Origin: a virus
Strand: one strand, 5' to 3'
Length of the DNA stretch: 31,496 bases
IMG/VR virus record: IMGVR_UViG_3300049893_000544
Coordinates: 1 to 31,496 of that record
Made by a program: the position numbers and the translations under genes. Below the pieces are notes generated by a model. That model made no database searches. It was given only the letters and a program-made list of their open reading frames with translations, and was not told where the DNA came from. Position 1 is the first letter of the stretch, and every line of letters begins with the position of its first letter. This document shows, in pieces, positions 14,465-31,496 of this stretch.

Positions 14465-14734
14465 ATGATACAACCAATAAGAAACAACGTAGTGGTTAAA
14501 TGTTTTGATTGTAGCGAATATTCCGAAGGCGGAATATTTGTACCGGAAAGCGTAAGGCAGCCGTCAAATAAGGTAAAAGTTATGGCGGTTGGCAACGGCA
14601 CAGCAAAAAAGAAAATGAAACTAAAGGCAGGAGATATAGGTTACAGGGTTAAGGGATGGGGAGAGCCTTTTGAGTTAGATGGGGAAACTTATTATATTAT
14701 TGACGCAAGTGCCGTTATAGCACTAACTGATTAA
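14465..14734 (+). CDS. GroES-like co-chaperonin (89 aa)
   Basis: Resembles the chaperonin-10 (GroES) family, whose seven-subunit caps bind GroEL and enclose folding substrates; phage versions such as T4 gp31 help fold the coat protein. Seen in order: MIQPIRNNVVVKCF, matching the family's 'I.PL.DRVvVk' opening; SEGGIFVPES at 20-29, the mobile-loop region with its hydrophobic contact residues; KVKVMAVGNGT at 36-46, the conserved 'G.VvAVG.G' strand; LKAGDIGYRVKGWGEPFELD, matching 'vk.GD.Vlf..y.G.e...dg'; and YYIIDASAVIAL at the end. Length 89 is close to the usual 95-97. It sits inside the connector/tail genes, so it is likely made late to fold a virion protein by host GroEL; that client is inferred. 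Confidence 0.8.
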   Translation: MIQPIRNNVVVKCFDCSEYSEGGIFVPESVRQPSNKVKVMAVGNGTAKKKMKLKAGDIGYRVKGWGEPFELDGETYYIIDASAVIALTD

Positions 14735-21136: not shown

Positions 21137-22489
21137 ATGGCAATAAACCCACTCCCGCAAGGGTTACATAATCAATATACAGAGGTACTTGATTCCTCCC
21201 CATTTTTAAGAAGAAATCTTGAAAATGAAGCTAAGAGGGAGGCTAAAGAAGAAGCCTTAAATCAGTATTTTAATGACCAAATAAAAACATTAAATCCTGC
21301 TGGTTTGAGGGATGTTCACCAAGCGGGAATATTAAAAGAGATAGCCGATATACAAAGTTTTTGGAATCAGAATAGCAGGGAAATAAAACAAGGCGGTGAA
21401 AAAAGGATGCAACTTGATAGAATGTTTAGAGATGCCGCCTATAATATTAATAATGCAAAACAAAGAGATAAGTTTTTTTTAGATTTAGCACAACAAAGAG
21501 CAGAAGGTAAAATTGAATTAGATGAAGAAGATATAAAGAAAGTATTGCCAAATCTTGAAAAATCAATATACGACAAATCGTCCTTAAAGCAGGATGGTAC
21601 TGATTATACTTGGGCGGATTTGTCAGCAATGGTAAAAGATTTGGATATAGAAACAGAGGGGAAGGCGTTAGATGCTATAACTAAAAATCTTACTCCTGTT
21701 GAAACCAAAGATTTATCAAGAAGGGTTGTTGATAAACAAAGTGGCGAAACAATTACTCCGATAATTAAAGCGTACACGCCAGAACAATTATTAGCTGCGG
21801 CTGAAACAGCAAAAGATTTACCTTTAGGAAATAGTGAATTAGCGAGAAAAGCGAGAAAATCTTATAATAGGTTACTAAAAGATGATGCCGCCATAACAGA
21901 ACTTGAAAAGTATTATAAGAAGGTTTATGGGCAAGATAAAGAAATAACAACCACCGAACAGGTGGCACAGGCAAAAGTGATAAAAAGAATGGTGGATGCT
22001 ACATCGGAAAAACTAAAAGAGGATAAAGATGTATTGCAGGCACAGATAAAAATAAATGTTGGTGGTGGTAGTAATACACCTAAAAATGCTGGTGCTAATT
22101 GGGTTACAAGAGCTATGTCAGCAATGAAAAGTGGTAATAGCCAAACAGCAACCGATGTTTTTTCAGAATTATTGGCAGGTGATATTACAAAATTTGATGG
22201 TGTTGAGGATTTGGGCGGTGGTAAATTTAAGGTTAAGATTTTGCCAAAGCAAAAGTATGACGTATTTGGGCAGGCAATACAAGGTTCGACAAACCCGGTA
22301 GAGAGAACTTTTGATGTAAACAGCAGAACGCTTCCTTATGAATTGCAGAATTTATATCAAAGTGTAATGGGCGGCGATGTTAAACTTGAAAAAACGTATT
22401 TCCCGCCAAATAAACCGACAGGAGAGAAACCAAAAGACGAAAAGCCATCAGGCGGTTCTTGGAAAGACAGGGCTAAAAAAGTACAATAA
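21137..22489 (+). CDS. internal virion / ejection protein, medium (450 aa)
   Basis: Probably a second cargo protein. The first about 120 residues are helical and strongly charged (NLENEAKREAKEEALNQYF), with further helical blocks to about 300. From about 305 a Gly/Asn linker (VGGGSNTPKNAG) leads to a small C-terminal region with strands (GGGKFKVKILPKQKYDVFG) and a Pro/Lys-rich tail (PTGEKPKDEKPSGG). There is no membrane segment and no recognisable enzyme motif. Its stop overlaps the giant gene's ATG (TAATG at 22487-22491). A three-gene cargo series of small, medium and very large proteins recalls T7 gp14-gp15-gp16, although no homology to those is claimed. Confidence 0.65.
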   Translation: MAINPLPQGLHNQYTEVLDSSPFLRRNLENEAKREAKEEALNQYFNDQIKTLNPAGLRDVHQAGILKEIADIQSFWNQNSREIKQGGEKRMQLDRMFRDAAYNINNAKQRDKFFLDLAQQRAEGKIELDEEDIKKVLPNLEKSIYDKSSLKQDGTDYTWADLSAMVKDLDIETEGKALDAITKNLTPVETKDLSRRVVDKQSGETITPIIKAYTPEQLLAAAETAKDLPLGNSELARKARKSYNRLLKDDAAITELEKYYKKVYGQDKEITTTEQVAQAKVIKRMVDATSEKLKEDKDVLQAQIKINVGGGSNTPKNAGANWVTRAMSAMKSGNSQTATDVFSELLAGDITKFDGVEDLGGGKFKVKILPKQKYDVFGQAIQGSTNPVERTFDVNSRTLPYELQNLYQSVMGGDVKLEKTYFPPNKPTGEKPKDEKPSGGSWKDRAKKVQ

Positions 22490-25400
22490 TGAGTAAATCG
22501 TTAAGAGTAAAAAAGGGAAACGAAGTATTAGAAATACAAGATACAGACCTTCAGGCGGCTGTTAATGATGGGTATTTGCCAACAGATACGGTTATAGTTG
22601 CAAATAGTAAAACTAAGGAAGTTTATGAGATAGCCCCGCAAGATTTACCGTCAGCATTTAAAGACGGGTTTTCATTTCAAGATGTAAAAAAAAAAGAACT
22701 TGGCGGTGGTTCACTTGGCTCAAAAGTTGGCGGCTTAGAACCCCAATCTACCGTATCAAATAACTTACAGAAAATAGGTAGCGGTGTAATGGGTAAGTTT
22801 GCTGATGTTATTATAAATCCGACAACTGGGAAATATCCAAAAGCAAACATAAATTTTGATATTGAATCTGTTTCGCAAAGAAGCAAAACACCAGATGCAG
22901 ATGTTAGGCTGTATAATAAGAAATTTGAAGAAGCGACAGGTGTTTTAGATTTAGGGGCATCTCCAAAAGGAATACTTGGTGGTGAAAAGAAAGATGATAA
23001 AATTTTAAGTAGAGAATCCTTATCAGATGCCGCCAAGTATCAAAAATATAGAAAGGTAGAAGAATATGTAATAAATCCCGTCCTTAATAATATTTATTCT
23101 GGTAGGGTAGAACCAGAAGAATTAAAATCTTTATACAACAATCAGTATGGTAAAAAAATCCTGTTAAATGTTTTAAATCAAGAATTACCAGAAATAAGTA
23201 AGATTGGGCTGGATGAAGATGTTTTTGGTAACGAAAAAAAGTGGGATAAGGTTGCCCAAAAATTGCAATACAGGAATAGGGCTAAGGGGATTGAATTACA
23301 AGAGCAACAAGAAGAACAAATCGCATCTGAACTTTCGGATGTATTTTCAAATTATAAATACGGTAAAGAGGATTATATTTCTGAAAGAAGAGGCCAAGCC
23401 CCACAATTAAAATCAACAAAAATCCCTTTCAGGGTTGATAATATTAACGATGTATCACAGCTTCAGGACGCATTAAATAGCGTAGAAAGGATGCCTTTTA
23501 TTTGGGATAAAGACGGTCACAAGGTTGATAAAACCCCAATAAAAGAAAAATTACAAAGAAGGATATTCCAATTACAAGCAGGGAAGGAAATTGACAAAGA
23601 GATATTAGGTCTTAAAGATATTATACTAAATGCCGTTGATAAAGTACCCCTTGATTGGAAAAGTCAGGGCAATGACCCAAATTTAGTTCAAAGAGATGCT
23701 GAATATGTAATGGCTGCTTTAAATTATTTGAAAGACACAAAAATCGGTGAATATGGCATGATAGTAGCCTCTATGGTTACTAATGGTAAAATTTCTGAAA
23801 CTCAATTTACCGAACTTGCTAACTTAGGAATTGAGTTAAAAAAATATAAAGATTTTAAAGGTGGTGCGTATGTATCAGGGGAAAAGAGAAGTATGCTTAC
23901 GCCACAATATAAAAAGGCAATATTAAGTGGATGGTTGTCTGAAAAACTTGAACAAGAGGGATATAGAAACAGGTCTGCTTATTCTGCAAAAGAAATTATA
24001 TCAGCTTATCAAAGCGCACCAGAAGATATAAAAGACGATGAAGTTTTAAGTGAAATAATAAAGGCGGAACGTGCGCCTTCGTTTGGGTTTTTGCCAATAC
24101 CGCAAGGGGAAGGGCTTGTTAAAAAGGGGGCTTTAAATTCTATTTTTGAAGGGTTCGCTAACCCCGTAAAAAGTATATTTAATACAGTAAGTACCGTAGT
24201 TGATTCTCCATTTGACACTTATTTAAAATCAAAAGAACTTGATAGGGGCGGACAAACAATATTAAATAAAAAAGGTGAATTTACAACTACATTAGAAAAT
24301 AATTTTTGGAATAAAGCGTTAGAGGGGGCTGCTGGATTATTCATGCAGGTTGGGCTTGCAAGGGGGTTGGGTTTACTTGCTAAAACCCCAATCAATGCAG
24401 CAATAGGAAGGGTAAACCCAATGGCGGCTATGACCACAAATCAAGCTGCCTTAAACATAGGTACTCCGCTATCAACATTAGCGCAAACATACGGATATGA
24501 GTATGTTGATTTTTTGGAGAAAACGGGAAGCCCCACAAAAGCTGCGTTAGGGGCTTTTGTTAGCGGTAGCGTTCAGGGATGGATTGAAAAGAATGTAATG
24601 CCAGACGTAAAAATTGCAGAAAACATAAACCTTATTACTGCAAAAAGAAATTTTGCAAAAGAAATAATTAATGTAATTGATAGTGGTGGTGGGCAGGCTA
24701 AATTAGGTGATATTGCAAAAAAGTTTTTAGATAATACAGCTAAAACATTAGGTAAGGAGGCTTGGGGCGAAGAAGTATTACAAAACTTTACTAATTATAT
24801 CACAGAATTAGTTATATCGCCTAAAACGGGTATAGATAGGAATATCTTAAAAGAAAGTTTAGATACGGGATTGCAAGCTACTAATGCAATGATATTACCT
24901 TCTTTATTAGGTGCTGCCGGACAAACAAAGATAAATAGACAACTATCAAAAGCAGGGATTAATATGATAGCGGCTTATCCAAAAGAATATTTAGATGCAA
25001 TGGATAGTCAGTTAGCAAGGGGTGAAATATCAAAGCAAGACTATGATTTAGCTACTAATATTATAAACCTGCACAGGGAAAATAATATCAATGCCCCAAA
25101 ATATGATGTTGAAGGTAACCCAATATCAGCAGATGGGCAATTAGAATACGCCTACCAATCAACAGTAGAGGCCATTAATAAAGAAAAGTTAAATCAGATA
25201 AAAGACCAAATACAAAAAGAACCGATTGAAAAAAAGATAAAAGAAGCTAATAATATAAAAAGAAAAATATTTAATGGGAAAGAGGCTGAAATAATAACCG
25301 ATATAAATGAATTAAAAATAGACCAAGATAGGGATTTGATGGATGAACCGGAATTAACAGAAGAACAGAAGGTAATACAAAGGGCTATTGATAGCGGGGA

Positions 25401-28400
25401 ATTGGCGGATGGTATGTATGCTGATATGGCGAAGCAAGCCTTAACAGACCCAGCAGTAGCAAAGCAACTAATAAATGAAGTAAGGTCGCAGGCTACTGGT
25501 GAAGTGGCAGGTGAATTAGGCAACGCAGAACAAGGTGTACGAGCAGCATGGGGGAATACTATTGTTGACTTCGCTATGCCCGCAAAACAAACCAAAAAAG
25601 AAAGTGCAGGTAAGGAAGTAGGTAGGGGGGGAGATGTGGATTTGAAAAATAAGACAGAAAAAGAATTAGAGAATAGGTGGGAAGAATTGAATACATTATT
25701 TAATGACAAGAAAGCGACACCGGAATTAAGTGATGAATTTGATGCTATTGAAAAAGAATTAGGAAGAAGGGAAAAGGAGAGTGTATTTGGTGTTTCTTTA
25801 GATAAGGCAAGATGGCAGCTTGAAAAGTATATTGAGGATAATAAAGATTGGGATAGAAGATTAATTGATACAAGGGATGCTAAACAAGCTATTGACGTTA
25901 TTGACAGATATATAGATAGTGATATTGTTTCTGATAAATTATTGGCAGAGGATTTTGTAGAGGCTATTATGGGTAATCCAGAAAGGTCTTATGCCGATGG
26001 TCTGAAATTAAGAGAATCAATGAAACTTGCATCTGAAAGAGGTATTGATATAAAAGATTTAATTGCAGGAGTTGAAAGAAAGTTTGAAAATGATGGTTAT
26101 TCAAAAGAAGAAGCAAGAGGTGTTGTGGCAATGAAATTGAAGCCCATATTTAAAGATTCTAAAGTTGAAGTAGTATTTAATAATCAATATAATGAAAAGG
26201 CACATGGACATTTACCCGATGAGGCAAAGCAAAAATTGATTGGTGAACAAACATCTATACTTGGCAAAGAAAATATAGAAGATATAATTGAGTTGGCATC
26301 AGATAAAAAAAATGTAAAATCTATTAAATTACAACCCCTACCCACCCAAGAAGTAAAGGCAGAACAAACCCCTGTTGGAGGTAGGGGGGGAGATGTGGTA
26401 AAGCCAAAAGAAGGACACGTTTACAGGGCTATTGATAACGCTGATGATGCAGTAGGTAATGATAAATCATTTTCAACTAAAACAAATTGGTATGATGGGG
26501 AAGGATTTTTAATTGAAGCTAAAAACACAGAAGGCAAAGACATAGAACATCACGAAGGAGCAAAAAGAGGGAATATAAAAGCAGAAGATGTTACTACTGT
26601 TTATTATGAACCAGATGGTATTGCAACAGACCCTAAAACGGTTGAACGGGAATTGGCTAAAATGAAAGAAAAGTTTCCCAATGCCAAATTTGTAGAAGTT
26701 GAATCTATCGAAGATAAAAATGGAGAGAATCAATTACACATCAAAGAAGCAAAGGCAGAACAAACCAATGTACCCCAAAAAGAAAGTGCAGGTAAGGAAG
26801 TAGGTGGTGGTGGAGGGGGAGATGTGAAAAGAACTGCAAAGCCAATTAGTAAAAGAATAGCAGTAGAACACGCAGGGCATGAGAGTGCTAAAAGAGTTAC
26901 TGGTGCAAATGAAAACACATTAGAAATTGATGGTTATGGCACTGTATTGACAAGCCAGTTTATAAATACGTTGGTTGAAAATGGCAGATTGCCAAAAGAG
27001 GCTTTAAAGAATAGGCATATACAGTTGACAGAGGAATATGCAACAAAATTATTGAATGAAAATTCTGATTTGTTCCCAAAAGAAAATACTGAAACGAGTA
27101 AAGTTGAAACCAATATACCTACTTTTGAAAATGCCAAAAACGAGTATGATGCAGTAAAAGAAAAGTATGCCAAGCATTTAAAAAAAGATGGGGGGCTTAG
27201 AGCAAACACGCCTGATAATGTAAAAAAAGAAATTGAGGATGCGTACACAAAAATGCAGTCAACGGTTAAGCAAGAAAGAGAAAAAAGGGTTTTAGAAGAT
27301 AAAAGAGATACAGGTTTAATTGATGGTATTGAAAGAATAAAAGACAATGCAAGTGCTTTTACTCTGGTAAAGATGGCAATGAATAGAGGTGCGATACCTG
27401 AAAGGCAGTTTAATGAGTTTGGAAAAAACCTACTTCATATTATAGCTGATGCAAAAGATAGCCATGAAGTAACAATGCAAACAGCCGAGATAATTCAAGA
27501 CTTTTCAAAAAGAGCAAATGTAAAGGTTGATGATACTCTTGCAAGAGAATTACAAGCGGCTGAAAATTTAAAATATGAACCCACCCAAGAAGTAAAGGCA
27601 GAACCCGTTGAAAAACCCGCCGAAAAACAAACAGAAGAAAGAAAGATAGGCAAGTATGAAGAAAAGGCTAAAAAGATAGCCGATAAAATAAAAGCCGCCG
27701 AATTACCCGATTGGCTTAAAGCTGATATTGGCGGGGCTAAAACACAAGGGGCTTCATTTGACCAATTAAAGCAAGCATTGGCAGACGCTATTATTGAAGT
27801 TGGCAGGCTTATGGATAAAGGGGTTGAATATGCAACTGCCATAAAACAAGCCGCCAATAACTTAGTAAAATTACAAGGCGAAGAAAACCGCCAAAAAATA
27901 GAAGAAGGATTTGCAAAATACTATGAAGATAATGTTGCCACCCCACCCCCGCCAATGGGAGAAAAGAAAAATGAAGGGGGAGAAGGCGGTGAAAAGAAAG
28001 GGTTATTAAATAGGTTGTATGAAGCAAGTGGTGTACCAAAATTATCAAAAGAAGGTTTTGAAAGAGAAGGGCTTAATTATACAACTTCAAGTCAGGAAGA
28101 AGCCGAACAATTAGCAAAAGGAGTTGTGAATGAATTTGGATTAGAGGAAAAGGGTACTTTTGACGGAGATGTAAATTCTTTAATTTTTGCCGAAGTATTA
28201 AATACATACGCAAATCAGGAATTGCAGGCTAAAACCCCGAAAGAAAAATACGAACTTGCTAAAAAGTTTGCCGAAGTGTCAATCACTTGGGATAAGCAAG
28301 CGAGAAGTGGAGGTAGGTTTAATTCAGCAATTAATTATTTCTATAAGAAATCACCATTAGGAATAAAATTAAAAGCAGAAGCAGATAGAAAAACAGAATT

Positions 28401-31400
28401 TATCAAATTTGCAAAAGGCAAAGAACAAAGTTGGGATGAGGTTTTAGAACAAATAAAAACCTTACCCGAATTTGAAGATTTTGTAAATCAAAAAGTTGAT
28501 GAAAAATTAAAAGAAGAAAGGGCTAAGTTAAGGGCGGATAAAAAAGAAAAAATACACAAGGCTATTGATAGCTGGGCTGCAAAGTGGGCTAAAAAATTAT
28601 CAATACAAAATAAGGATGACGTACAAAAGCAAGGCATAGGCAATATTGATGCAATAATGGAAGGCATTGCTGCCGCCGCTAAAAAAGCCTATGATGCTGG
28701 CATTGCAATAGAAGAAATAGTTGAAAATGCTGTAAAGTCATTATCAGATGCGGTTTCGGGTGATTTTGATGTGGAAGAATTTAAAAAATCAATCGTAAGT
28801 ACACTTGGATTAGGTGAGAAAAAATCAGCACTTGATAGTTATAAAGAAAGGTTGCAGCGTCAGATAGATGAGTTAGACAAACAAATAGAAGCGAAAAAAA
28901 GGAACGCAAAAGAAAGCGGAAAAAAAGTTGAACTTGATAGCGATGCTAAATACCTTGTTTCAAAAAGAGATGAAAAGAAAAAAGAACTTGAAAGGGTAGC
29001 CCCTTTGTCAAAAACAGATGAGTATAAAATAAAGCAATTAGATAAGGTAAAGAAAAAATTAAAAGGATTAAGTGAGGCACAGAAAGACAAAGTAATAAGA
29101 GATTCCTATTTACACCTTATTGAAAACGGTGCATTGGATGATGCTGAATTTAGGGATATTATTGCAAAAGCAACTGGATATGGTAAACTTACTGAAGCGC
29201 AAAACGCACAATTACAAAAATTAGTAAAAAATACAAATTCGGTTGATGCTTTTGGGGAAAGAGTAAGAACTTTAAAAACAGATAAATCTTTTTCCGATTA
29301 CAAAAAAGCGCAATTAAGGGCTGCTATTTCAGCAAGGGAACTTGCAGATATGTTTGATAAGAAAGACCAAATTCTGAAAACTCTTGTAACGTCATTACAG
29401 GGCAATACTATATCTATCTATAACGCTATATTATTAAACCCCGCATTTAACGTAATAAATCAACTTGCCGTAAGACTTCCAGCATCGGCGGTACAAAGCG
29501 TTGTTGATATTACTATTGGGGCTATGAATAAAAAGTACGGTGGCGAATGGAATACAGTGTTTTCAAGAGCAACGCAAAAAGAGTTTTTCAAAAGGCTTGG
29601 TCAGGGGGTAAACGAAGCCGCACAAAAGTTTGTTACTGGTTTAAGCCGCCAAGATTATGAATCAAAAGACGTTTATCCAAATCAGATAAGACCATTGCGT
29701 TCTTTTAAAAGTATTATAAATCAAATAAGAAGCAACAAGAGAATAAACGATATGGTTGTTTCTATGGGCGGAAAAGAAGTAGCAAGGGAAGAAGATTTAA
29801 GTGGTAAACAAATTTTTAATAGGGCATTGCAGGTATTCCCCGGAACTCCCGCAGAACTAATATTTAGGATTCTTGAATTTGGCGATAAGCCAATGAGGTT
29901 TGGTGCGGGCGGCGCACAAGGGGCTGCATTTGCGGAAGCATTGGGTATTAATCCCAAATCTATTGATTTTAAAATATTTATTGAGTTCCCAAGAGAGGAA
30001 GCATATACAAGGTTTAAAAATAAATTTTATAGTCAATATTTTACAGAAAATATAAGTAAGGGTTTGCCAGAAGATGAAGCAAGAAGTAAAGCAACTATTA
30101 AAGCTGAAGAAAAAGCAGGCATTGAGGCGGACTACACAAAAGCAGCAATAGAACAAGAAGGTAAGCGTTCTACATTTCAGCAAAATAATTTATTTGTTGA
30201 TATAATAAATAGGGCATTTAGAGGTGGCCGGGTAGAAGAAACGGGGGCTGCTTCTTTGTTAAAAGTAGCTACCATATCTCCGTATATAAAAATTCCATCT
30301 AATGCCTTTTGGAGTTTTATGACTTTACAGCACCCCGGACTTGCATTGGCTGAAGCTGTTGGTCATAAAATGTATGCAGCCCAACTTGAAAAAAACGGTG
30401 ATTTTGTTAAAGCTAAATTACAGCAAAGAGAAGCAAGATATTGGCTTGGACACGCTGCCGTTGGTATTGGGTGGAATGCCGTATTAATACCACTTATAAA
30501 GGCTGGAATAATACTTGCAAGTGGCGGTAGCGATGAACCTAAGAAAGAAAGACAGGGTGAGGCTACATACGAACCACAAGGGACATTTAATTTAACTAAG
30601 TTTTTGGCGTGGGTTCGTGGCGAAAATCTGTCAGAAGTAAAAAATAGTGTAACGGTAAATCTAAAGTGGTTTGGTAGTTTAGGGATGATGATGAACGCAA
30701 TGGCTAAAGATTATGAAGAACTAACCCCAGAACAATTAGAGAATAGAAATTTATTAGTTTCCAACCTTTTAGAATTTTGGGATATTGATGATTTAGAGGA
30801 AATGCAAAATAGTGTTTTCGCTAATTCATCTGCTTTGTTTACTGCATTGGGTAGTGGTGGATACGGGGCAAGAAGATATGGCGTTAGCATGATTAATCTT
30901 TTTGCTAACATAGTGCAGCCGCAAACAATAGCTGCCTTATCAAGGGCAAAATTAGATTATACCGTAAAAGGTAACACGGGTAGCTTTATGCGTGATTTGG
31001 ATAATACTATGCTACAAAGGTCATCTTGGTACAGAAAATTATCAGGTCGTATGCCAGATGCAAAGTATAATATGTGGGGAGAAAAAATGGAAAAAACGGA
31101 TGGATTTTGGTTTAGAGTGCTTGGATTTAACATAGTTAATAAAGACAATTTTGCACAACCAATATATGATGATGCAAAAGAATATAATGAAGATGCTTTT
31201 TTCGCCCCCGCCGTTTCAAATAAATTAAATGGAATTGAATTAAACAATGAACAGCAAGGGCTAAGAGAACAACTTGTCGGTAAAGCAAGAAGGGCTTATG
31301 TAGAACCTTTTATTAATGATGAAATGAAATTCCCGATTATTGATAAATATTATAGCGAATTATCAAAAGAAGAAAGATTATCCGCACTTGAATATTTTTA

Positions 31401-31496
31401 CCAACTTGGTTTAGAAGAAGGTGATAAAATGTTGTTTCAAACACCGCAGGGGGTTGGTTTAAAAAAACCTGAAAAATCAATAGATGAAATGGTTTC
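22489..31496 (+). CDS. giant multidomain (polyvalent-type) ejected protein, partial (at least 3002 aa)
   Basis: One uninterrupted frame from ATG 22489 to the window end; I translated every line and found no stop, so the stop lies outside. It resembles the giant polyvalent proteins that phages package and inject. Order: a tandem EI..DL..A..DG[YF] unit (residues 5-65); helical region to about 590; Gly/Ala-rich hydrophobic helices (about 605-830); further helices to 1033; then blocks separated by near-repeated linkers at about 1034-1050, 1283-1304, 1421-1447 and 1698-1706, and a Pro/Gly/Glu linker at 1817-1837. Coiled coils follow near 2120-2195. The C-terminal part has LLNPAFNVINQL (about 2315), GDKPMRFGAGGAQGAAFAEA (about 2465) and SPYIKIPSNAFWSFM (about 2597), typical of large polyvalent protein C-terminal regions, and a hydrophobic segment near 2655-2683. 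Enzyme identities are unproven. Confidence 0.85.
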   Translation, partial: MSKSLRVKKGNEVLEIQDTDLQAAVNDGYLPTDTVIVANSKTKEVYEIAPQDLPSAFKDGFSFQDVKKKELGGGSLGSKVGGLEPQSTVSNNLQKIGSGVMGKFADVIINPTTGKYPKANINFDIESVSQRSKTPDADVRLYNKKFEEATGVLDLGASPKGILGGEKKDDKILSRESLSDAAKYQKYRKVEEYVINPVLNNIYSGRVEPEELKSLYNNQYGKKILLNVLNQELPEISKIGLDEDVFGNEKKWDKVAQKLQYRNRAKGIELQEQQEEQIASELSDVFSNYKYGKEDYISERRGQAPQLKSTKIPFRVDNINDVSQLQDALNSVERMPFIWDKDGHKVDKTPIKEKLQRRIFQLQAGKEIDKEILGLKDIILNAVDKVPLDWKSQGNDPNLVQRDAEYVMAALNYLKDTKIGEYGMIVASMVTNGKISETQFTELANLGIELKKYKDFKGGAYVSGEKRSMLTPQYKKAILSGWLSEKLEQEGYRNRSAYSAKEIISAYQSAPEDIKDDEVLSEIIKAERAPSFGFLPIPQGEGLVKKGALNSIFEGFANPVKSIFNTVSTVVDSPFDTYLKSKELDRGGQTILNKKGEFTTTLENNFWNKALEGAAGLFMQVGLARGLGLLAKTPINAAIGRVNPMAAMTTNQAALNIGTPLSTLAQTYGYEYVDFLEKTGSPTKAALGAFVSGSVQGWIEKNVMPDVKIAENINLITAKRNFAKEIINVIDSGGGQAKLGDIAKKFLDNTAKTLGKEAWGEEVLQNFTNYITELVISPKTGIDRNILKESLDTGLQATNAMILPSLLGAAGQTKINRQLSKAGINMIAAYPKEYLDAMDSQLARGEISKQDYDLATNIINLHRENNINAPKYDVEGNPISADGQLEYAYQSTVEAINKEKLNQIKDQIQKEPIEKKIKEANNIKRKIFNGKEAEIITDINELKIDQDRDLMDEPELTEEQKVIQRAIDSGELADGMYADMAKQALTDPAVAKQLINEVRSQATGEVAGELGNAEQGVRAAWGNTIVDFAMPAKQTKKESAGKEVGRGGDVDLKNKTEKELENRWEELNTLFNDKKATPELSDEFDAIEKELGRREKESVFGVSLDKARWQLEKYIEDNKDWDRRLIDTRDAKQAIDVIDRYIDSDIVSDKLLAEDFVEAIMGNPERSYADGLKLRESMKLASERGIDIKDLIAGVERKFENDGYSKEEARGVVAMKLKPIFKDSKVEVVFNNQYNEKAHGHLPDEAKQKLIGEQTSILGKENIEDIIELASDKKNVKSIKLQPLPTQEVKAEQTPVGGRGGDVVKPKEGHVYRAIDNADDAVGNDKSFSTKTNWYDGEGFLIEAKNTEGKDIEHHEGAKRGNIKAEDVTTVYYEPDGIATDPKTVERELAKMKEKFPNAKFVEVESIEDKNGENQLHIKEAKAEQTNVPQKESAGKEVGGGGGGDVKRTAKPISKRIAVEHAGHESAKRVTGANENTLEIDGYGTVLTSQFINTLVENGRLPKEALKNRHIQLTEEYATKLLNENSDLFPKENTETSKVETNIPTFENAKNEYDAVKEKYAKHLKKDGGLRANTPDNVKKEIEDAYTKMQSTVKQEREKRVLEDKRDTGLIDGIERIKDNASAFTLVKMAMNRGAIPERQFNEFGKNLLHIIADAKDSHEVTMQTAEIIQDFSKRANVKVDDTLARELQAAENLKYEPTQEVKAEPVEKPAEKQTEERKIGKYEEKAKKIADKIKAAELPDWLKADIGGAKTQGASFDQLKQALADAIIEVGRLMDKGVEYATAIKQAANNLVKLQGEENRQKIEEGFAKYYEDNVATPPPPMGEKKNEGGEGGEKKGLLNRLYEASGVPKLSKEGFEREGLNYTTSSQEEAEQLAKGVVNEFGLEEKGTFDGDVNSLIFAEVLNTYANQELQAKTPKEKYELAKKFAEVSITWDKQARSGGRFNSAINYFYKKSPLGIKLKAEADRKTEFIKFAKGKEQSWDEVLEQIKTLPEFEDFVNQKVDEKLKEERAKLRADKKEKIHKAIDSWAAKWAKKLSIQNKDDVQKQGIGNIDAIMEGIAAAAKKAYDAGIAIEEIVENAVKSLSDAVSGDFDVEEFKKSIVSTLGLGEKKSALDSYKERLQRQIDELDKQIEAKKRNAKESGKKVELDSDAKYLVSKRDEKKKELERVAPLSKTDEYKIKQLDKVKKKLKGLSEAQKDKVIRDSYLHLIENGALDDAEFRDIIAKATGYGKLTEAQNAQLQKLVKNTNSVDAFGERVRTLKTDKSFSDYKKAQLRAAISARELADMFDKKDQILKTLVTSLQGNTISIYNAILLNPAFNVINQLAVRLPASAVQSVVDITIGAMNKKYGGEWNTVFSRATQKEFFKRLGQGVNEAAQKFVTGLSRQDYESKDVYPNQIRPLRSFKSIINQIRSNKRINDMVVSMGGKEVAREEDLSGKQIFNRALQVFPGTPAELIFRILEFGDKPMRFGAGGAQGAAFAEALGINPKSIDFKIFIEFPREEAYTRFKNKFYSQYFTENISKGLPEDEARSKATIKAEEKAGIEADYTKAAIEQEGKRSTFQQNNLFVDIINRAFRGGRVEETGAASLLKVATISPYIKIPSNAFWSFMTLQHPGLALAEAVGHKMYAAQLEKNGDFVKAKLQQREARYWLGHAAVGIGWNAVLIPLIKAGIILASGGSDEPKKERQGEATYEPQGTFNLTKFLAWVRGENLSEVKNSVTVNLKWFGSLGMMMNAMAKDYEELTPEQLENRNLLVSNLLEFWDIDDLEEMQNSVFANSSALFTALGSGGYGARRYGVSMINLFANIVQPQTIAALSRAKLDYTVKGNTGSFMRDLDNTMLQRSSWYRKLSGRMPDAKYNMWGEKMEKTDGFWFRVLGFNIVNKDNFAQPIYDDAKEYNEDAFFAPAVSNKLNGIELNNEQQGLREQLVGKARRAYVEPFINDEMKFPIIDKYYSELSKEERLSALEYFYQLGLEEGDKMLFQTPQGVGLKKPEKSIDEMV
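25595..25639 (+). repeat. linker repeat A in the giant gene
   Basis: Encodes KKESAGKEVGRGGDV. Bases 25595-25623 (29 bases) recur exactly at 26777-26805, and bases 25620-25639 (20 bases) recur exactly at 26379-26398. It separates the helical first third of the protein from a charged block. Confidence 0.8.
26340..26398 (+). repeat. linker repeat B in the giant gene
   Basis: Encodes PTQEVKAEQTPVGGRGGDV. Bases 26340-26365 (26 bases) recur exactly at 27579-27604, 26355-26370 (16 bases) recur at 26751-26766, and the last 20 bases recur in repeat A. It is thus a mosaic of parts found in three other linkers. Confidence 0.8.
26751..26829 (+). repeat. linker repeat C in the giant gene
   Basis: Encodes KAEQTNVPQKESAGKEV then GGGGGGDV. 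It joins a part of repeat B (16 bases, 26751-26766) to the 29-base part of repeat A (26777-26805), followed by a Gly-rich GGT/GGA expansion. Confidence 0.8.
27579..27604 (+). repeat. linker repeat D in the giant gene
   Basis: A 26-base exact copy of the first part of repeat B, encoding PTQEVKAE, followed by unrelated Pro/Glu/Lys linker sequence (PVEKPAEKQTEE). Confidence 0.8.

Follow-up and report, generated by a model that had tools for sequence, protein, structure and literature searches.

The giant gene that closes the 31,496-nt stretch of viral DNA analyzed here (hereafter, the window) carries four short linkers that repeat parts of one another at the DNA level, between blocks of very different appearance. 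The question raised by this locus is whether the linkers are copies of one DNA sequence and whether they are the places at which a giant phage protein gains, loses, and replaces its blocks, as an earlier note on this DNA had supposed.

RESULTS

The giant gene and its phage

The giant open reading frame (ORF; positions 22489 to 31494, plus strand) encodes at least 3002 aa and runs off the contig end; its residues are numbered here from the start of the open frame at 22477 (3006 residues, with Met at 5). It is the last structural gene of the window, where the genes for TerL, portal, and capsid are followed by smaller structural genes, a gene for a 1035-aa structural protein, two more genes, and the giant. 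The same gene order is found in phi38:1 (Pervagoviridae) and in Elemovirus, and by synteny the giant corresponds to phi38:1 gp101 and Elemovirus gp18, both of which bear the annotation structural protein (1692 and 3695 aa, respectively). The window TerL matches solely phages of Cellulophaga, Flavobacterium, Tenacibaculum, and Maribacter and one uncultured podovirus, with 24 to 27% identity over 88 to 99% for the Cellulophaga and Flavobacterium phages. Judged by this TerL kinship and by the order TerL-portal-capsid-structural genes-giant, the window phage is to be classed as a phi38:1/Elemovirus-like podovirus of Bacteroidota. The name crAss-like was dropped, as phi38:1 belongs to Pervagoviridae in the NCBI lineage, which shows no rank of Crassvirales.

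At the place of the giant, the relatives that we fetched (loci bearing L numbers) have either one giant ORF or two adjoining ORFs; the latter arrangement was seen in L110, L111, L117, L121, L124, L126, and L129 to L134, with the C-part as a free gene or fused. Elsewhere in the window, a small ORF (14465 to 14734) resembles the GroES cochaperonin, a gene annotated beside TerL in phi38:1 and phi19:3, and two ORFs upstream of the structural genes (320 to 1758) are glycosyltransferase-like and S-adenosylmethionine (SAM) methyltransferase-like.

The giant is a large protein coded among virion/late genes and is a structural phage protein that is probably ejected. We infer its entry into the host from its position, from the annotation of its counterparts, from a match of one relative to a virion RNA polymerase family, and from related phages, since the giant cargo proteins C1 and C2 and the virion RNA polymerase of crAss001 are packaged in Bacteroidota podoviruses and are thought to be ejected (PMC10136315). 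The match concerns the N-part of L130 (L130:13583-17317, residues 212 to 555), which hits phrog_2206, a family of N4-type virion RNA polymerases, with 2.7e-7; the matched stretch does not include the catalytic part. The likeness of the window giant to the crAss001 proteins is that of giant podovirus proteins, with no claim of homology, and the DxDxD catalytic motif of the crAss-like virion RNA polymerase, a narrow pattern, had no match in it. Pfam and PHROGs searches with the window giant returned no significant family, and Pfam matches to inteins or homing endonucleases (splicing, nuclease) were absent from blocks 1 to 3 and from the giants of ten relatives.

Linkers A to D are copies at the DNA level

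All four linkers lie on the plus strand: linker A at 25592 to 25639 (KKESAGKEVGRGGDV), linker B at 26339 to 26398 (PTQEVKAEQTPVGGRGGDV), linker C at 26735 to 26827 (KEAKAEQTNVPQKESAGKEVGGGGGGDV), and linker D at 27578 to 27614 (PTQEVKAEPVEK). Among the maximal exact same-strand repeats in the giant ORF, the runs shared by A and C (29 nt at 25595/26777), B and D (26 nt at 26340/27579), A and B (20 nt at 25620/26379), and B and C (16 nt at 26355/26751) are the four longest of the 9-kb reading frame, and all are in frame; the shared runs first pointed out in the earlier note are exact to the base. When the giant gene was codon shuffled (n = 200), the longest repeat averaged 14.3 nt and never exceeded 19 nt, a maximum surpassed by the 29-, 26-, and 20-nt runs; the 16-nt run alone falls within chance. 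For two copies of the same peptide, full codon identity is expected from the codon usage of this phage with a probability of 3.7e-4 for A-C, 1.8e-3 for B-D, 1.5e-3 for A-B, and 0.024 for B-C. Because the codon agreement exceeds the expectation from the phage's codon usage, linkers A to D are DNA copies, and the earlier argument from identical synonymous positions to DNA copying is the natural reading of these values.

Alignment by inspection divides the linkers into three segments, Q (PTQEVKAEQT-like), P1 (KESAGKEVG), and P2 (GRGGDV). Linker C holds all three, A holds a remnant of Q with P1 and P2, B holds Q and P2, and D holds Q. A single ancestral linker, present in four copies that have eroded in part, would explain this pattern more simply than exchanges in different combinations. 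The linkers could instead be functional peptides (a spacer or a processing site) held alike by selection at the protein level, as they are disordered, rich in Lys, Glu, Pro, and Gly, and located at domain joints throughout the family. We regard this as improbable, since synonymous codons agree beyond codon usage and since the same block occurs with different linker peptides (see below), so that no common motif is required.

A variable middle between conserved ends

The N-part of the giant (residues 120 to 1008; 22834 to 25500, plus strand) has a counterpart in L141 that is 30% identical to it. The C-part (from residue 1843; 28003 to 31494, plus strand) was recovered by an alignment query in 25 loci, some of them on contigs already in the set; it is common to about 20 further giants, mostly fused to differing upstream parts, and is a free-standing gene in L098, L133, and L134. 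Single-protein scans for relatives of the ends of the giant and of blocks 2 and 3 had found none, the C-part being found later by the alignment query, and Pfam searches on the C-part alignment gave no significant family. L141 alone has both the N-part and the C-part, with about 107 residues between them versus about 835 in the window, and all four linkers and the three blocks fall in the extra stretch of the window that is absent from L141. A further segment ahead of the C-part (27625 to 28005, plus strand) is common to L138 only.

The contig is metagenomic, and an assembly artifact could in principle have produced such repeats. Both ends of the giant are collinear with L141, which argues against a chimeric contig; moreover, the linkers differ from one another over part of their length, no stop interrupts the frame, other contigs also contain block 1, and repeats of this kind occur in isolate phages as well, so that we give this explanation next to no weight.

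The three blocks (plus strand; about 230, 112, and 250 aa) differ in character. Block 1 (25640 to 26336) is mostly helical, block 2 (26399 to 26734) is a small alpha/beta domain, and block 3 (26828 to 27577) is mostly helical with no relatives found. A weak PBECR3-like match of block 2 (E 0.027, below the Pfam cutoff) is the only trace of a polyvalent domain in the window. AlphaFold2 (AF2) predicted block 1 with confidence as helical (pLDDT of ∼80) and blocks 2 and 3 with intermediate confidence, whereas the linkers had low confidence (pLDDT of ∼36 at linker A), the pattern expected of domains on a flexible string; block 2 modeled by itself was poor (mean pLDDT of 52.8), and Foldseek against the PDB returned no match for either model.

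Used as queries, the blocks each match nothing else in the window, in agreement with the earlier description of them as unrelated. Their mutual dissimilarity next to identical linker DNA also bears on the idea that a unit of linker plus domain was duplicated in tandem long ago and that the domains have since diverged. The linkers are indeed paralogous copies, and L101 seems to hold a domain duplication of this kind; the dissimilarity of the blocks, together with the occurrence of block 1 relatives elsewhere without the other blocks, makes it a very remote prospect for the window.

Blocks recur in giants that are otherwise different

The core of block 1 (∼180 aa; residues 1055 to 1233) is found in at least five other giants (L095, L096, L116, L143, and L170), with neighbors that are otherwise different. 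Its similarity is out of step with that of the remaining protein: L095 and L143 are 58% identical in block 1 without having a common C-part, and the window and L143 are 36% identical despite a common C-part. In three of the six giants, block 1 is bracketed by private in-frame direct repeats, encoding GRGGDV in the window (20 nt), QSLKETPK in L095 (26 nt), and AAPEVPKSP in L143 (30 nt), and each of these bracket scores was reached in 0 of 300 shuffles; the bracket is borderline in L116, and no bracketing repeat was found in L096 and L170. Judging from these comparisons, block 1 evidently moves between giants. A second block, block X (PIRQLGTGSNVYFE...), is flanked by EVKPTEV-type linkers in L131 and L150 and by APQVPA-type linkers in L140 and L152. 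Since the same block carries different linkers in different genomes, the linker follows the genome and not the block.

Filled and empty sites in closely related phages

The DNA of L103 and L135 is 91 to 96% identical in the neighborhood of one site (93 to 96% in the flanks). At this site, L135 encodes EEVKSTEI-TPIPEI, and L103 inserts 110 further residues between EEVKSTEI and TPIPEI; the 8-nt sequence CTGAAATA stands at both joints of this 110-aa block, inside the EVKSTEI linker. Compared with L150 and L151, L146 has an additional linker-ART-linker unit in flanks that are 87 to 96% identical (94 to 96% on both sides for L150). The two linkers of the unit have 19 nt in common, and its domain is ART-PolyVal, an ADP-ribosyltransferase of polyvalent proteins (2.6e-13, above the Pfam cutoff), a family also found above the cutoff in L126 (7.6e-8). 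Since no linker stands at the empty site, the linkers arrived together with the block, and homology to a linker at the target was not needed. In L121 and L130, 94% DNA identity stops near an EVKPTEV linker, itself common to both, and the content differs beyond it. In near-identical relatives, blocks are seen to be present or absent at linkers.

Other pairs show replacement. In elemoD and elemoF (L182 and L180, from one mesocosm), residues ∼140 to 826 of the giant are replaced between flanks that are 98% identical, and the joints lie in a charged stretch, not in repeats. Residues 1032 to 1209 of L103 are a replaced stretch relative to L135, with HELMH or HELIH (zinc-peptidase-like HExxH) in the two versions. 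Two candidates were rejected: L101 and L102 as a filled/empty pair, where domain duplication is more likely, and a half-gene swap between phi38:1 and Calle_1, which is only apparent because the record origin cuts the gene.

We also noted repeats around blocks in single genomes. In Elemovirus gp18 (NC_055853.1; L180:19900-20410), a 130-aa block lies between the copies of a 31-nt direct repeat (TQEDAVQKQ). By eye, the block resembles an ART (PTYRGTSISEWESVKKG); Pfam lends no support. This phage is cultured and has 68 sequenced relatives. In L098 (L098:454-7602), a 28-nt linker (TNPALSDVE) occurs three times (residues 571, 728, and 879) and brackets two blocks of ∼150 aa.

The expectation that block content should change among relatives was borne out by block 1 in five other giants, by the region missing from L141, and by the filled/empty pairs, and no relatives with the same blocks in the same order were found among those compared. 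The companion expectation, that linker DNA would stay conserved as content changes at the linkers, was not borne out for the window: no 15-mer of its linker DNA occurs in the fetched relatives, except for one 16-nt stretch in L100.

How general the linkers are

Dispersed direct repeats occur in 20 of 76 giants versus 4 of 152 shuffled sequences (P = 1.4e-7, not corrected for relatedness), and all 37 of those in giants are in frame; the remaining 56 giants have no clear dispersed repeat. Among 206 nongiant ORFs of these phages, 10 have dispersed repeats, eight being Thr-rich tracts and two resembling domain duplications. We defined an island as a stretch common to otherwise different giants. 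Bracketing (repeat score of ≥15) was found for 9 of 127 islands versus 12 of 1,270 random intervals from the same genes (P = 3.7e-5, not corrected for relatedness), and a clear bracketing repeat is absent from the other 118 (93%).

The linker DNA that is conserved among relatives is that of a related linker, EVKPTEV, not that of the window: 21 copies occur in 13 other giants, around unrelated blocks. Its first Val is encoded by GTT in 20 of 20 copies (usage, 46%) and its Thr by ACT in 18 of 21 (usage, 38%), and these position-specific codons point to one ancestral DNA sequence. Recombinases of the ERF, RecT, RecA, and Rad52 families were not found in 24 to 28 relatives.

The linkers may also be passengers, that is, disordered spacers that tolerate breaks and that gene conversion or slippage keeps alike within each gene, the blocks having come in beforehand through illegitimate recombination; the shuffling would then be real, with linker identity its result rather than its tool. 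This explanation, the most serious of the alternatives although we hold it to be rather unlikely, would fit the different linkers around one block in different genomes, the private linker DNA of the window, the insertion at a nonlinker site in L146, and the mere 8 nt common to the L103/L135 joints. It does not readily account for EVKPTEV DNA shared by 13 giants around unrelated blocks or for the L121/L130 identity that ends near a linker common to both.

DISCUSSION

We propose, with a probability of about 0.6, that the giant consists of a conserved N-part, an exchangeable middle, and a conserved C-part and that blocks recombine at linkers copied in frame. The middle would be a string of small, separately folding domains on short disordered linkers, and recombination at the linkers would lead to the gain, loss, and replacement of blocks. 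Being copied in frame as short direct repeats, the linkers would keep the joints in frame and outside the folded domains; in the window, four copies of one linker would bracket three blocks. The linker DNA itself may provide the short homology for recombination, and the blocks are predicted to act inside the host after entry of the protein.

Shuffling at linkers is well supported, and a role of linker DNA as a homology handle is plausible from the repeats described above. The earlier suggestion of linkers as handles for swapping blocks thus stands as far as shuffling at linkers goes, but the private linker DNA of the window, the 118 islands without a clear bracket, the nonlinker target in L146, and the recombinase families not found in the relatives weigh against the handle itself. 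Likewise, the term effector blocks is fair for relatives, whose ART-PolyVal domains pass the Pfam cutoff, but the window's blocks have no secure function. More tentatively, the middle could be a dedicated exchange region in which linkers are recurring handles, a lineage-specific "dialect" through which effector domains are traded in frame within one virion protein. If so, the exchange region would be a within-gene analogue of gene cassettes.

Repeated sequence within one gene guides domain exchange in the HsdS subunits of type I restriction systems, which differ from the giants in having two domains of one fold instead of many unrelated blocks. Polyvalent proteins are already known for extensive domain rearrangement, e.g., H. 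pylori jhp1044 (Iyer et al. 2017, PMC5512222). Like them, the giant is a large multidomain protein among virion genes, and blocks of its relatives match ART-PolyVal; unlike them, the window giant has no block with a secure polyvalent domain, and the giants have blocks between copied genome-specific linkers, filled/empty pairs, and conserved ends, PMC5512222 making no mention of linkers. Phage proteins are mosaic in general, with ongoing exchange of domain-sized fragments (PMC10684548, 2023), a likeness to the giants; that paper says nothing of linkers, of direct repeats, or of polyvalent and ejection proteins. Polymorphic toxins (PMC3482391) also exchange small effector domains on a constant carrier. 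The similarity to modular toxin systems drawn in the earlier note does not extend to their architecture, a variable C-terminal part on a constant carrier, as the giant varies in the middle and its C-part is conserved in about 20 relatives. A search of the open-access literature turned up no account of exchangeable blocks set between copied linkers that are specific to a lineage. Domain-mosaic and polyvalent phage proteins are thus known, and blocks held between copied linkers would be a new variant of them.

Copied disordered linkers around mobile blocks offer a testable route by which giant phage proteins may gain domains in frame, a route of which natural pairs of near-identical phages and the cultured phages of Flavobacterium give examples. 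For mining, anything between two linker copies would be a candidate host-acting domain.
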